Source: Stenotrophomonas maltophilia
GTDB lineage: Bacteria; Pseudomonadota; Gammaproteobacteria; Xanthomonadales; Xanthomonadaceae
Direction: 5' to 3'
DNA: 64,000 nucleotides
Assembly: GCF_002138415.1 (NCBI RefSeq)
Contig: NZ_CP015612.1
Coordinates: 4,442,001 to 4,506,000 of the forward strand
Numbering within the stretch: the stretch's first letter is position 1; each line of letters opens with the position of its first letter. The position numbers and the translations under genes were made by a program. Of the stretch, positions 28,166-31,615 are shown piece by piece. The notes beneath the pieces are model-generated. The model worked only from the letters and a program-made list of their open reading frames with translations, searched no databases and was not told the origin of the DNA.

Positions 28166-28236
28166 CGGAGATCGGCCACCCCGATCTCCGAGGCTTGACG
28201 ACGCCCTCGGAACGCAAGTCCCGGGGGCGTTTTCGT
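28166..28236 (+). terminator. Double hairpin with intrinsic terminator
   Basis: First hairpin 28166-28190: CGGAGATCGG/CCACC/CCGATCTCCG. Second 28201-28230: ACGCCCTCGG paired with CCGGGGGCGT over 10 bp, followed by TTTTCGTTT. It should insulate the slipin-rtcB transcript from upstream transcription. Confidence 0.7.
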
Positions 28237-28358
28237 TTGCGTCGGCACAAGGACCCGCGATGCCAGAACTGCACCCCGCGCGGCAACCCGCCGCTCACTG
28301 ACACAGGTTTTTTCCGCTCCGCCGAAGGATTTACTTCGCGCGAGTGGCGACGCCTGGA

Positions 28359-28401
28359 CATTATCTGCATCGCATCAAAACATTATCGCTCGCGATAATG
28401 T
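28359..28401. promoter_or_regulatory. Dyad upstream of the tRNA-like/slipin/rtcB unit
   Basis: ACATTATCG/CTCG/CGATAATGT (28380-28401) is a perfect 9-bp inverted repeat, AT-rich in a GC-rich stretch. A direct half-site ACATTATC occurs 13 bases upstream at 28359-28366. This is the pattern of a transcription-factor site, and GATAAT inside it may double as a -10 box. It lies just before the tRNA-like sequences. The protein that binds it is unknown, and no regulator gene is adjacent. Confidence 0.5.
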
Positions 28402-28432
28402 CGATGGCCTGCACCCTCGATTCTCCAACGGT

Positions 28433-28570
28433 CCCGTTTCCACCACGGGCTGGTGCGCGCGGCGTTGCCGTGGCGTATGCCGGAGGTCGCGGACATGCCA
28501 TCGCCTGGATCGCCTGCTGGAAGCAGGCACCGGTTCGCCGGTACGCGGTTCGATTCCGCGCGGTTCACCA
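28433..28570 (+). ncRNA. tRNA-Ser-like RNA segment (5' part unresolved)
   Basis: The 3' two-thirds reads like a class II tRNA. Anticodon arm: GCCTG/CTGGAAG/CAGGC (28512-28528), a 7-base loop with U33 and anticodon GGA (Ser). Long variable arm: ACCGG/TTCG/CCGGT (28529-28542). T arm: CGCGG/TTCGATT/CCGCG (28544-28560). Then CGGTTC, A and an encoded CCA (28568-28570). No 5' acceptor strand complementary to CGGTTC and no convincing D arm are found upstream, so it is not a standard tRNA gene. Further upstream, CCCGT/TTCCACC/ACGGG (28433-28449) is another 5-bp/7-base hairpin of anticodon-arm geometry. The next tRNA-like unit begins after one base. Confidence 0.6.
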
Positions 28571-28571
28571 C

Positions 28572-28642
28572 TGGATAGCTCAGTCGGGTAGAGCAACGGA
28601 TCCTGATTCCGTCTGTCGTGGGTTCGACTCCCACTCCAACCA
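28572..28642 (+). ncRNA. tRNA-Gln-like RNA with short acceptor
   Basis: 71 bases with all tRNA arms. The acceptor TGGA pairs with TCCA over only 4 bp, followed by A and encoded CCA (28640-28642). D arm GCTC/AGTCGGGTA/GAGC. Anticodon arm ACGGA/TCCTGAT/TCCGT with anticodon CUG (Gln) but C where the near-invariant U33 should be. Variable loop CTGTC. T arm GTGGG/TTCGACT/CCCAC. Read with a 7-bp acceptor, the 3' strand TCCAACC would need 5' GGTTGGA, but the sequence has CACTGGA, so three pairs are missing. It is in the orientation of slipin-rtcB and probably part of their transcript. Confidence 0.75.
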
Positions 28643-28917
28643 CATGACCTCTCACGTCATGACTTGAAGCAACACCCGGGGCGCAAGCCCCAGCGGCCAT
28701 CGTCGCCGTCCACGGACACCGCCTTCGGGCAGGAACGTGGAAGGCAACGGACCGCACGCCGGGCCCCGGCCCGCCGCCACTGCCAGCCACGTTCCGCACC
28801 GGCGCTGCCTGCCGGGAACGACGATGGCAGCAGTGCCGGTGCACCGAAGGCTCCGCGCGCGGACCGTCCGCCGATGGCCGCCCTCTTCCGCTGCCTGCAC
28901 GTGGTGTGCAGGCGGCC
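28643..28917 (+). ncRNA. Structured leader RNA ahead of slipin
   Basis: A run of strong hairpins fills the space between the tRNA-like unit and slipin: CATGAC/CTCTCAC/GTCATG (28643-28661); GGGGC/GCAA/GCCCC just after 28678; a long stem GGAACGTGG..GGCA with TGCC..CCACGTTCC (28732-28795); ACCGGC..GCTGCC with GGCAGC..GCCGGT (28798-28840); and GCCTGCAC/GTGGT/GTGCAGGC (28893-28913) set inside GGCCGCC/GGCGGCC. An open frame crosses the region but its peptide is Arg/Pro-rich and not protein-like. The density of perfect pairing suggests a noncoding RNA or processing sites. Confidence 0.5.
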
Positions 28918-28999
28918 TCTCCACGACCTGATCGACCCGGGTCATGGCGATTCATCCGCAACGGGTCGAACCACCAGAGCCATACAAGGAGAGACTCCC

Positions 29000-30124
29000 A
29001 TGTTCTGGACCATCAAGGTCGTGATCGGCGACGGCGAGCGCGGCCTGGTGTATCGCAACCGTCGTTTCCAGCAGATTCTGCTGCCGGGCGTGCACCGCCT
29101 GTCGCCGTTCGGCGGCCGCCCGCACGTGGACATCCACACTGCATCGAAGGGCGCGGCCTATACCGGCAGCGACCAGGACAGCCTGATCGAAACGCTGGGC
29201 GCACGGCTGGACACGCACTTCGTGCTGGCCAACGTCGGCGCCAGCGAGGTCGGCCTGTTGCTGCGCAACGGCCGCATCGATGAAGTCCTGCCGCCGGGCA
29301 GCCGCCGTCTGTACTGGCGCGGTTCGGTCGATACCCAGGTGCGCGTGATGGCGCTGGGTGACGAACCGCGCATCCCGGCGGACGTGCAGCAGCGCCTGGG
29401 CCAGTTGGGCGTGTTGCCGCGTGTGGCGGTGATCAGCACCGTGCCGAGTGAGTCGGTCGGCCTGCTGTTCATCGATGGCACGCTGCGGCAGACGCTGGAC
29501 GCCGGCCTGCACGCATTCTGGAACTTCAACGGCAACGTGTCGGTGGAGCGTGTGGAACTGCGTGCACGTTCACTGGACGTGTCCGGCCAGGAACTGCTGA
29601 GCCGCGACAAGGTGACCCTGCGGGTGAACCTGGCCGCGACCGTGCAGGTGGTCGACCCGGTGCGTGCGCACCGCACGCTCAGCAATGCCGATGAGTTCGT
29701 CTACCGGCAGCTGCAGTTCGGCCTGCGCCAGGCAATTGCCGCGCGCAGCCTGGACGAGCTGCTGGGCGACAAGGCGGCGCTGGACGGCGAGATCGCCGCC
29801 CATGTGCAGGCCGCGATCGAGGGCCACGGCGTGAGGCTGCTCGGCGTGGGCATCAAGGACGTGATCCTGCCGGGCGAGATGAAGGAGATCCTCAACGGTG
29901 TGGTGCTGGCCGAGAAGCAGGCCCAGGCCAGCGTGATCCGCCGTCGCGAGGAGGCCAACGCGACGCGTTCGCAGCTCAACACCGCAAAGCTGATCGAGGA
30001 CAACCCGGTGCTGATGCGCTTGAAGGAGCTGGAGGCACTGGAGAAGGTCACCGAGAAGATCGACAAGCTCACCGTGTTCGGCGGCCTGGATGGCGTGCTG
30101 AAGCAGCTGGTGACGATCAGGTAG
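29000..30124 (+). CDS. Slipin-type SPFH/band-7 protein
   Basis: 374 residues from the ATG at 29000, with AAGGAGAG seven bases upstream. Residues about 180-330 form the SPFH domain ('LRVNLAATVQVVDPVRAHRT', 'RQAIAARSLDELLGDKAALD', 'GHGVRLLGVGIKDVILPGEMKEILNGVVLAEK'), followed by a helical tail. No N-terminal membrane anchor is visible, unlike membrane slipins. Instead, the first 175 residues contain three similar beta-hairpin units: GERGLVYRNRRFQQILLPG (12-30), SEVGLLLRNGRIDEVLPPG (82-100) and ESVGLLFIDGTLRQTLDAG (151-169). Slipins of this type are known neighbours of rtcB in bacterial RNA-repair loci. rtcB follows 56 bases downstream. Confidence 0.88.
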   Translation: MFWTIKVVIGDGERGLVYRNRRFQQILLPGVHRLSPFGGRPHVDIHTASKGAAYTGSDQDSLIETLGARLDTHFVLANVGASEVGLLLRNGRIDEVLPPGSRRLYWRGSVDTQVRVMALGDEPRIPADVQQRLGQLGVLPRVAVISTVPSESVGLLFIDGTLRQTLDAGLHAFWNFNGNVSVERVELRARSLDVSGQELLSRDKVTLRVNLAATVQVVDPVRAHRTLSNADEFVYRQLQFGLRQAIAARSLDELLGDKAALDGEIAAHVQAAIEGHGVRLLGVGIKDVILPGEMKEILNGVVLAEKQAQASVIRRREEANATRSQLNTAKLIEDNPVLMRLKELEALEKVTEKIDKLTVFGGLDGVLKQLVTIR

Positions 30125-30180
30125 GGGGTCGCGGTGGCGCAGGGACGCGCCACCGGCCCATCAAGGACATTCAAGAAGAC

Positions 30181-31401
30181 ATGGACACTCAACAGAACTA
30201 TCAATGGCTGCACGCCGAGGGCACCACGCCGATCAAGGGCTGGGTCAACGGTGTGCCGCTGGAAGCGCAGGCGCATGAGCAGCTGCGCAACATCGCCGCG
30301 ATCCCGTTCGTCGGGCCGTGGGTGGCGGTGATGCCGGACGTTCACCTGGGCAAGGGCGCGACCGTGGGCTCGGTGATCCCGACCCGCGGTGCGATCATCC
30401 CGGCCGCGGTCGGTGTCGACATCGGCTGCGGCATGGCGGCAGTGCGCACCACGCTGCGCGCCAACGACCTGCCCGATGACCTGCGGCAGCTGCGCAACAG
30501 CATCGAGCGCAGCATCCCGGTCGGCAACGGGCGCGGCGGCGAGCATCAGCGCATGCCCGACAGCATCCACACCCGGCTGGTGCAGTCCGGGCTGGCCGAC
30601 GGCCTGGAGAAGATCAAGGACAGGCACCGCAGGATCCGCACCGACAAGCTCGACCGCCAGCTGGGCACGCTCGGCGGCGGCAATCACTTCATCGAACTGT
30701 GCCTGGACGAGACGGATACGGTGTGGGTGATGCTGCACAGCGGATCGCGCGGCACCGGCAACCTGATCGGCACCTACTTCATCGAGAAGGCGCGCGAAGA
30801 GCTTGCGCGCCGTGTGCTCGGCTTCCACCTGCCGGACAAGGACCTGGCGTTCTTCATGGAAGGCGAGCCGCTGTTCGATGACTACGTCGAAGCGGTGTCG
30901 TGGGCGCAGGACTATGCCCGGCAGAACCGCGAGGCAATGATGTCGCGGGTGCTGGCCGAGATGCGCCACCGGCTGCCGAAGTTCCAGCTGGCAGCGATGG
31001 CGGTGAACTGCCACCACAACTACGTGCAGAAGGAGACGCACCACGGCCAGGAGCTGCTGGTGACGCGCAAGGGCGCGGTCAGCGCGCGTGAGGGCGAACT
31101 GGGCATCATTCCCGGCAGCATGGGCACGCGCAGCTACATCGTGCGCGGCAAGGGCAACGTGGACAGCTTCCACAGCTGCAGCCACGGTGCCGGCCGGGTG
31201 ATGAGCCGTGGCACGGCGCGCCAGCAGATCACGCTGGCCCAGCACCGCGAGGCCACCGCGCACGTGGAATGCCGCAAGGACAGCGGCGTGCTGGACGAGT
31301 CACCGGCCGCGTACAAGTCGATTGACGACGTGATGGCAGCGCAGCTTGACCTGGTCGATGTGGTGCATACCTTGCGCCAGGTGCTGTGCGTGAAGGGATG
31401 A
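30181..31401 (+). CDS. rtcB: RNA-splicing ligase RtcB
   Basis: 406 residues, full family length. GTP- and Mn-dependent ligase that joins RNA 2',3'-cyclic-phosphate or 3'-phosphate ends to 5'-OH ends, as in tRNA splicing and repair. Metal ligands lie in VGVDIGCGMAA (Asp80, Cys83), GGGNHFIEL and MLHSGSRGTG. The guanylylated His is His335 in FHSCSHGAGRVMSR (E. coli His337). 'AVNCHHNYVQKE' and 'GSMGTRSYIV' are also conserved. RtcA (cyclase), the sigma-54 activator RtcR and archease are not adjacent. With the slipin gene and the tRNA-like RNAs upstream it appears to form one transcription unit. Confidence 0.96.
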   Translation: MDTQQNYQWLHAEGTTPIKGWVNGVPLEAQAHEQLRNIAAIPFVGPWVAVMPDVHLGKGATVGSVIPTRGAIIPAAVGVDIGCGMAAVRTTLRANDLPDDLRQLRNSIERSIPVGNGRGGEHQRMPDSIHTRLVQSGLADGLEKIKDRHRRIRTDKLDRQLGTLGGGNHFIELCLDETDTVWVMLHSGSRGTGNLIGTYFIEKAREELARRVLGFHLPDKDLAFFMEGEPLFDDYVEAVSWAQDYARQNREAMMSRVLAEMRHRLPKFQLAAMAVNCHHNYVQKETHHGQELLVTRKGAVSAREGELGIIPGSMGTRSYIVRGKGNVDSFHSCSHGAGRVMSRGTARQQITLAQHREATAHVECRKDSGVLDESPAAYKSIDDVMAAQLDLVDVVHTLRQVLCVKG

Positions 31402-31462
31402 TGGAACGGTGCCGGCCAAGGCCGGCACCCACCGCGCCTCAATCGTGCCCGATCGCTCTGCA

Positions 31463-31615
31463 GTAGATCCACGCCATGCGTGGATGTGGTCCCATCGGGG
31501 TAAGAGCCCCTTCTACGAAGGGGATCCGACCCCGGCGCCGACCAAGGTCGGCATCCACCAGAGCAGCACGGCATGCCGGGGGTCAGAGCCCTTTCTGCGA
31601 AAGGAATCCGACCCC
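31463..31615. repeat. SMAG plus two GGGGTCAGAG-family palindromes
   Basis: 31463-31485 is a SMAG (GTAGATCCACGCCATGCGTG plus GAT). 31497-31533 (GGGGTAAGAGCCCCTT..AAGGGGATCCGACCCC) and 31579-31615 (GGGGTCAGAG..ATCCGACCCC) are direct copies of the longer family. GCCGACCAAGGTCGGC lies between them, and TGCCGGCCAAGGCCGGCA precedes the SMAG. This packs the whole gap between rtcB and the next, convergent gene. Confidence 0.82.

Follow-up and report, generated by a model that had tools for sequence, protein, structure and literature searches.

Which RNAs bacterial RtcB repairs, and why SPFH proteins are found beside the ligase, are questions on which a locus of Stenotrophomonas maltophilia may bear. 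The window analyzed here, 64,000 nt long (contig NZ_CP015612.1, positions 4,442,001 to 4,506,000, forward strand), contains a slipin-like SPFH gene followed by rtcB, and about 1 kb separates the slipin start from the end of the preceding long open reading frame (ORF) on the + strand (27926). A preliminary description, made from the sequence alone, had noted in this gap a dyad, two abutting tRNA-like sequences and dense hairpins, upstream of and in line with both genes, and had proposed an RNA-repair operon that carries its own tRNA-like RNAs. By comparison with other genomes, 28380-28999 is shown to be a conserved region, predicted to form a structured RNA, that belongs with the slipin and offers as many as three positions for an anticodon arm (in A, in B, and in hairpin C). 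Hairpin C is missing from the preliminary description and was found in the present comparison. We tentatively read the RNA as a bait or sensor for anticodon nucleases that is resealed by RtcB, a reading that in our estimate falls somewhat short of an even chance. The parts of the region are the following.

28382-28399, + strand: 5' hairpin (the "dyad"), ATTATCG/CGATAAT, covarying (in 64 aligned loci, 91% of cells are paired and two-sided changes occur at 8 of 10 pairs)
28404-28503, + strand: nested 5' domain with closing helix 28404-28411/28496-28503, helix 28419-28429/28479-28489, and hairpins 28430-28451 and 28453-28478
28506-28570, + strand: tRNA-like A, four helices, with acceptor TGGATCG/CGGTTCA, arm CCTGC/GCAGG, and T arm CGCGG-TTCGATT-CCGCG, then CCA
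28572-28642, + strand: tRNA-like B, with acceptor TGGA/TCCA (4 bp), D arm, and T arm GTGGG-TTCGACT-CCCAC, then ACCA
28643-28661, + strand: hairpin C, which mimics an anticodon stem-loop, with stem ATGAC/GTCAT, a closing C-G pair, and the 7-nt loop CTCTCAC (two-sided changes at all 6 pairs)
28678-28691, + strand: GNRA hairpin GGGGC-GCAA-GCCCC (pairing in 97% of cells, two-sided changes at 3 of 5 pairs)
28693-28881, + strand: 3' domain closed by a long-range helix (..28699/28871-28881), with covariation
28932-28969, + strand: hairpin TCGACCC/GGGTCGA just 5' of the slipin ribosome-binding site (4 of 7 pairs change on both sides)

Both tRNA-like units can be read directly from the sequence. At its anticodon-arm position, A has ACCGG-TTCG-CCGGT, a UUCG tetraloop without an anticodon, while the anticodon arm of B is ACGGA-TCCTGAT-TCCGT, with C at position 33. 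ARAGORN calls B tRNA-Gln(CTG) and the Rfam tRNA model gives it 47.2 bits, which would suit ordinary tRNA genes or decayed tRNA pseudogenes that lie upstream of rtcB by chance; a standard tRNA finder lists such tRNA-like units as tRNA genes. We consider this explanation highly improbable. Among the 65 tRNA-family matches in the genome, B is the only one to match positions 4-67 of the model (the others match 1-71), and a single match scores lower. Anticodon identity differs between close relatives, and U33, which all 46 distinct real tRNAs from the fetched stretches have (46/46), is missing from about half of the B loops of 7 nt. Compensatory changes in the stems exclude decay. Real tRNA-Gln(CTG) and tRNA-Thr(CGT) are found elsewhere in the genome, so that the RNA is not needed to decode those codons. 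An elongator tRNA identity was rejected, as A has a tetraloop, B has a 4-bp acceptor and C33, and the isotype is unstable among close relatives. By eye, two Thiodiazotropha loci (L116, L118) and two Competibacter loci (L119, L121) have a full cloverleaf in A and a reduced B, the reverse of the arrangement in the window.

Is the region under selection as an RNA? Folded as a single sequence, 28640-29000 is unusually stable (z = -6.65, with 0 of 100 shuffles as good), in agreement with the dense hairpins described before. The stability of 28400-28660 alone is not unusual (z = -1.32), and because single-sequence folding told little about the tRNA-like part, we turned to comparative alignments. Alignment A3 holds the more regular 50 of 70 candidate loci, and dropping the 20 irregular ones favors a clean alignment; in it, 96.7% of 1880 cells pair and 27 of 38 pairs change on both sides. 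The 256 double-change cells compare with 59.6 +/- 7.0 after shuffling and at most 56 when the alignment is slid, and every helix except the D stem of B contributes. We also built a covariance model of the A-B pair, R1, which matches the window at 28502-28643 with 112 bits. Alignment A4 was fitted to it and has 96 rows (88 distinct), including several real-tRNA matches of locus L095 and one partial row (L098); here 97.6% of cells are paired, 35 of 38 pairs change on both sides, and double-change cells number 567, compared to 122.4 after shuffling and no more than 111 after sliding. Covariation at other slipin-rtcB loci, whose absence had been named beforehand as the result that would speak against the preliminary description, is thus present in both A3 and A4.

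The flanking parts behave alike. The 5' region (64 non-redundant Xanthomonadales-type loci) has 417 double-change cells versus 136 shuffled and the 3' region (59 such loci) 484 versus 158, figures that lean towards the fold, which was predicted from the same alignment as was scored. The arm spacing, or loop length, of the 5' hairpin varies between species, so that an RNA hairpin fits this dyad better than a rigid operator does; the operator reading is disfavored for this reason. Within the nested 5' domain, only 78% of the cells of the closing helix are paired, and the hairpin at 28453-28478 carries a conserved GGTGCGCGCGGCnnTGCCGTGGCGTATGCC motif, with 98% of cells paired and few double changes. 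Direct reading of the domain shows the motif GGTGCGCGCGGCGTTGCCGTGGCGTATGCC. By these alignments, the dyad, the tRNA-like units, and the dense hairpins are parts of one conserved stretch of about 620 nt, which probably forms a single RNA molecule.

We asked which gene the RNA accompanies. The two genes downstream of it are the following.

29000-30124, + strand: slipin-like SPFH gene (374 aa; Pfam Band_7, 119 bits; fold match to stomatin/SPFH structures)
30181-31401, + strand: rtcB, RNA ligase (406 aa; Pfam RtcB, 418 bits; matches solved RtcB structures)

In a phylum sample of 398 genomes, 23, four of them from Stenotrophomonas, carry this slipin at E <= 1e-60. In 22 of these 23 loci, one or more tRNA-like units lie upstream of it, the remaining locus having 91 nt of upstream sequence, and 0 of 20 control stretches upstream of other SPFH genes match. 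R1 gave model-spanning matches in 85 of 88 loci (L028-L115), the others being the partial L098 and L102 and L105 with less than 240 nt upstream, and matched 37 of 40 loci in L116-L138 and L144-L160 (two partial), with little or no upstream sequence in L123, L132, and L155; these locus sets overlap and are not independent. R1 is not specific, as it also matches ordinary tandem tRNAs (170 of 249 genomes, E <= 1e-15), and we therefore relied on context instead of genome-wide counts; at this threshold, the slipin locus is the sole match in its own genome.

When we searched for this RtcB (E <= 1e-10, flanks of 1.5-4 kb), rtcB was located 3' of the slipin in 79 of 88 loci (L028-L115) and in 15 of 45 (L116-L160), and upstream of it in 6 of 133, all in L116-L160. 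It was not found in the flank of 33 of 133 loci (9/88 and 24/45), some of which are at contig ends. In Microbulbifer, the arrangement is rtcB - RNA - slipin - rtcA, and in Hahella RlaP follows the slipin. The proposed tie to an RNA-repair operon stands insofar as the RNA is conserved and covarying; its constant partner across the loci compared is the slipin, since the RNA stays when rtcB is upstream or not found and when RlaP or RtcA adjoins the slipin, and rtcB is a usual but not universal companion. The locus is patchy within genera (33 of 91, 17 of 35, and 13 of 25 genomes). The element at 28350-28680 has 93-97% identity in 7 of 24 other Stenotrophomonas genomes searched, and the slipin is 97-99% identical in Stenotrophomonas relatives. 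No relative was found in viral contigs.

The slipin combines a Band_7 domain with a stomatin fold: its predicted model (pLDDT 74.5) has stomatin as top Foldseek match (E 1e-12, TM about 0.34 of the query) and also matches HflK/C folds. Classical slipins have an N-terminal membrane anchor. A hydropathy scan gave no apparent transmembrane segment here (maximum 19-residue hydropathy 1.34) and, by the same measure, none strongly hydrophobic in 15 homologues (1.16-1.73). Because there is no obvious membrane segment and the modeled fold is that of stomatin, it is possible that the slipin assembly is soluble. RtcB scores above the domain cut-off and aligns over the catalytic region with TTHA1785, a solved RtcB-family structure, with the C, NH, and HGAGR motifs kept.

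In a census of loops, 160 of 186 loci gave a pair, corresponding to 132 distinct pairs; once arms whose stems had fewer than 4 pairs were omitted, 111 loops remained for A and 124 for B. Since the loci had been found with a TTCRA-like pattern, no T-loop conservation can be claimed from this census. Loop B occurs in 72 distinct forms among 124, and the 104 of 7 nt have 31 different triplets. Loop A has 7 nt in 18 and 4 nt in 55 of the 111; its figures are rough in Stenotrophomonas, where the parser shifts by a few bases ('CGGT' is really a TTCG tetraloop). In Xanthomonas-like loci, the loop flanks TT..AA are mostly kept and the triplet varies.

Changes were then counted on slipin trees for Stenotrophomonas, a Xanthomonas-like genus, and a third genus, g82 (always in this order; n = 30, 14, and 11 from 36, 18, and 13 loci after dropping duplicates and loci without a detected pair). 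Loop B has 4.14, 2.00, and 2.33 steps per site, and the remainder of the RNA has 0.58, 0.68, and 0.33 (permutation P 0.0007, 0.005, and 0.0001; the permutations take sites to be independent). Third codon positions have 1.37, 1.32, and 0.71 steps per site, which loop B exceeds with P 0.002, 0.13, and 0.0008. The case is clearest in g82, where the RNA outside the anticodon arms has 0.14 steps per site and the loops are replaced wholesale. Across the predicted structure, the stems are maintained through covarying changes while the anticodon loops are exchanged. Of the roles suggested in the preliminary description (decoy, sensor, or guide/substrate), such turnover on a conserved body favors a decoy or sensor. 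With anticodon loops as its fastest-changing parts, this conserved RNA offers a direct and cheap test of the bait reading.

Hairpin C provides a second line of evidence. A perfect 5-bp hairpin follows B directly in 126 of 133 distinct loci and is missing in 7. Among its 89 loops of 7 nt, C32 is present in 85, U33 in 86, and A37 in 85, and 61 are identical to a real anticodon loop, compared to 35.9 after column shuffling; counted once each, 8 of 25 loops equal a real one, compared to 3.9 (P 0.02). In both comparisons, all species were judged against the real loops of the window genome alone. The identities are Asp GUC (35), Glu UUC (14), Asn (5), and Tyr (3), with Gly, Arg, Lys, and Leu once each. 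In Stenotrophomonas, the stem is invariant and the steps fall at positions 34 (8), 35 (3), and 37 (1). In g82, all 11 loci share the stem CTGCC/GGCAG, and four loop triplets occur: GTT, CCC, GTC, and TTC. The parser behind the hairpin C counts above found all 11 of these hairpins, whereas the parser used for the tree counts found none there and 7 of 14 in the Xanthomonas-like genus. By these patterns, the 7-nt hairpin C evolves as an anticodon does, outside any tRNA.

How might such an RNA work? In the bait or sensor reading, it would be made from the promoter of the operon and bound by the SPFH oligomer. Anticodon nucleases (toxins, bacteriocins, or phage-triggered enzymes) would cut the displayed loops instead of, or besides, real tRNAs; the cuts would leave 2',3'-cyclic-phosphate and 5'-OH ends for RtcB to reseal, and in other lineages RlaP or RtcA would act on the ends. 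The loops would change fast because the attacking nucleases change. Colicin E5 cuts the GUN anticodon class and zymocin cuts UUC. We arrive at this reading because both units covary, the RNA is linked to the slipin, the loops turn over, hairpin C resembles an anticodon arm, and the neighbors (RtcB, RtcA, RlaP, rtcR) belong to RNA repair. A more far-reaching version, which we think doubtful, is immunity at the RNA level: the non-coding RNA might present, on tRNA-like bodies that stay fixed, a set of anticodon stem-loops that evolves by anticodon swaps, and so act as a decoy for whichever tRNA-cutting toxins a lineage encounters, with a soluble SPFH assembly holding it and the operon's own ligase repairing it.

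Several observations weigh against the bait or sensor reading. Many A loops are tetraloops (55 of the 111 as parsed, 20 of them GNRA), which make poor nuclease targets, and among the 104 seven-nt B loops U33 occurs in 54 and is lacking in 50, including that of the window. Hairpin C is not universal, 37 of 126 of its loops are not 7 nt long, and in the Xanthomonas-like genus it mostly has a 5-nt loop without anticodon features. The excess of loop B over third codon positions is not significant in that genus. Many other RNA sites in Stenotrophomonas also have 8-10 steps on the slipin tree, which indicates that recombination inflates the counts there. As rtcB was not found near the slipin in a quarter of the loci counted above, the function may extend beyond resealing by RtcB. 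In Salmonella, according to the available text of PMC7790460, fragments of YrlA, the tRNA-like RNA of an RtcB operon, were not detected, so that YrlA is not cut by the tRNA-cutting nuclease there.

An alternative is an architectural, Y-RNA-like scaffold, in which the tRNA elbows would dock slipin oligomers, RtcB, and damaged tRNAs, and the loops would go unread, drifting or chosen for nuclease resistance. With tetraloops in A and B loops that lack U33, a nuclease-resistant scaffold fits as well as a bait does, and the uncut YrlA of Salmonella agrees with it. In the alignments of the A-B pair, few base pairs are as constant as those of the T and D stems. SPFH proteins form large oligomers, the slipin here matching the folds of stomatin and HflK/C, and the YrlA model RF02553 matches the RNA weakly, T arm before D arm; this match reaches 24.5 bits, far under the cut-off of 69. 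Loop rates above those of third codon positions in two genera are not easily explained by drift, however, and hairpin C keeps U33, A37, and loops of real tRNAs while positions 34-36 vary. We regard a scaffold as a real rival, at a chance well short of even.

Relatives of the locus in enterobacteria show a reduced form of the RNA. At least 80% of a query of upstream RNA plus slipin is present in 1621 of 5426 complete Escherichia coli genomes, and in five E. coli records (L314, L317-L320) and one of Citrobacter a nucleotidyltransferase gene lies 3' of the slipin; it is RlaP in both E. coli proteins scanned. The reduced RNA retains one T arm. When E. coli and Citrobacter loci were tested, ARAGORN called no tRNA, and the T arm was all that R1 matched (E 0.04). 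The RNA is without annotation in four E. coli chromosome records. Its loops do not vary among the five E. coli loci, which counts against the bait or sensor reading. All six records have an element, TGGCAC..GC (GG-N10-GC), before the RNA, a putative sigma-54 promoter by its consensus, and rtcR adjoins the slipin operon in Citrobacter. The five E. coli loci are positioned between yjbD and lysC or phage genes. A zeta-toxin family gene stands beside the slipin and nucleotidyltransferase genes in two of them (L319:5490-6416, L320:5489-6415), and phage tail genes follow these genes in two others.

The sigma-54-like element raises the question whether the RNA is a cis-acting leader that regulates slipin-rtcB, for instance if cleavage of a tRNA-like arm altered leader folding or stability and turned the operon on. 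The RNA is upstream of and in line with the slipin wherever it was found in the loci examined, and the hairpin just before the ribosome-binding site covaries. The RNA is far larger than a leader would need, however, no terminator-like site was found on the + strand, and folding alone hardly explains up to three displayed anticodon arms. We consider a leader function unlikely, though still a real rival. No sigma-70-like promoter was found, and the nearest sigma-54-like sequence 5' of the RNA in the window is GG-N9-GC, as judged by eye and not by a systematic scan.

The preliminary description had expected a logic different from that of the RtcR-controlled enterobacterial rtcBA operon, in the absence of RtcR and Ro60. 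Whole-genome searches gave 0 matches for RtcR and 0 for TROVE (Ro60/Rsr), which bears this out for the window genome; the E. coli and Citrobacter slipin operons, by contrast, have the sigma-54-like element and, in Citrobacter, the adjacent rtcR. The absence of both proteins also sets the locus apart from an RtcR-controlled rtcBA operon and its RNA from Y RNAs, which are partners of Ro60/Rsr.

How do these findings relate to known systems? Burroughs and Aravind (2016, NAR 44:8525) reportedly described SPFH/Band-7 modules that adjoin RtcB and possess a cognate "novel tRNA-like molecule", which they proposed as a scaffold for RNA repair. The slipin-linked tRNA-like RNA as a class would thus already be predicted in print, and the locus, with a tRNA-like RNA beside the Band-7/SPFH gene of an RtcB repair system, belongs to that class. 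What we add is the tandem layout, hairpin C, the loop turnover, the slipin as constant partner, and the reduced E. coli form, any of which may be contained in Burroughs & Aravind 2016. Among the matches listed in the literature searched, the scope of which comprises few subscription or non-commercial-licence papers, we found no description of this RNA.

The Salmonella rsr-yrlBA-rtcBA operon is likewise an RtcB operon that carries an RNA with a tRNA-like domain (PMC7790460, available text; Rfam RF02553), and competitive inhibition of an anticodon nuclease is named there by its authors as one possibility for YrlA. YrlA has one permuted module, unlike the two tandem units of the window. In Anabaena, one repressor, TrcR, controls rtcB and a 26-gene tRNA array, and a slipin gene appears in the table of genes that rise on deletion of the repressor; the loci are separate by their gene numbers, and the available text mentions no structured leader (PMC10272220). 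An SPFH gene, PaFlo8, lies inside the Pseudomonas aeruginosa rtc locus, and its rtcB operon is described with two genes listed as unknown, PA4582 and PA4584; a tRNA-like RNA, such as the window carries, is not mentioned in the available parts of these two reports (PMC13086221, PMC8619066). PaFlo8 is probably PA4582.

Some further features were seen around the genes. Ten ORFs between slipin and rtcB in relatives have no Pfam family except for one zf_Tbcl. Frames of 261-309 aa in this position in several Lysobacter/Pseudoxanthomonas-type loci (L078:5126-5932, L080:5173-5955, L086:5282-6160, L093:5218-6144, L117:5225-6037) have no Pfam family, and a 126 aa treble-clef (zf_Tbcl) protein occupies it in a gammaproteobacterial genus (L147:1080-1457, minus strand). 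Upstream of the RNA in the window, an inverted repeat that looks like a terminator, ACGCCC..GGGCG followed by TTTTCGTTT, lies at 28199-28240 and is also present in the aligned Stenotrophomonas loci; it may end the upstream transcription unit. Downstream of rtcB, at 31404-31580, there are short GC-rich palindromic intergenic repeats that by eye resemble REP elements.

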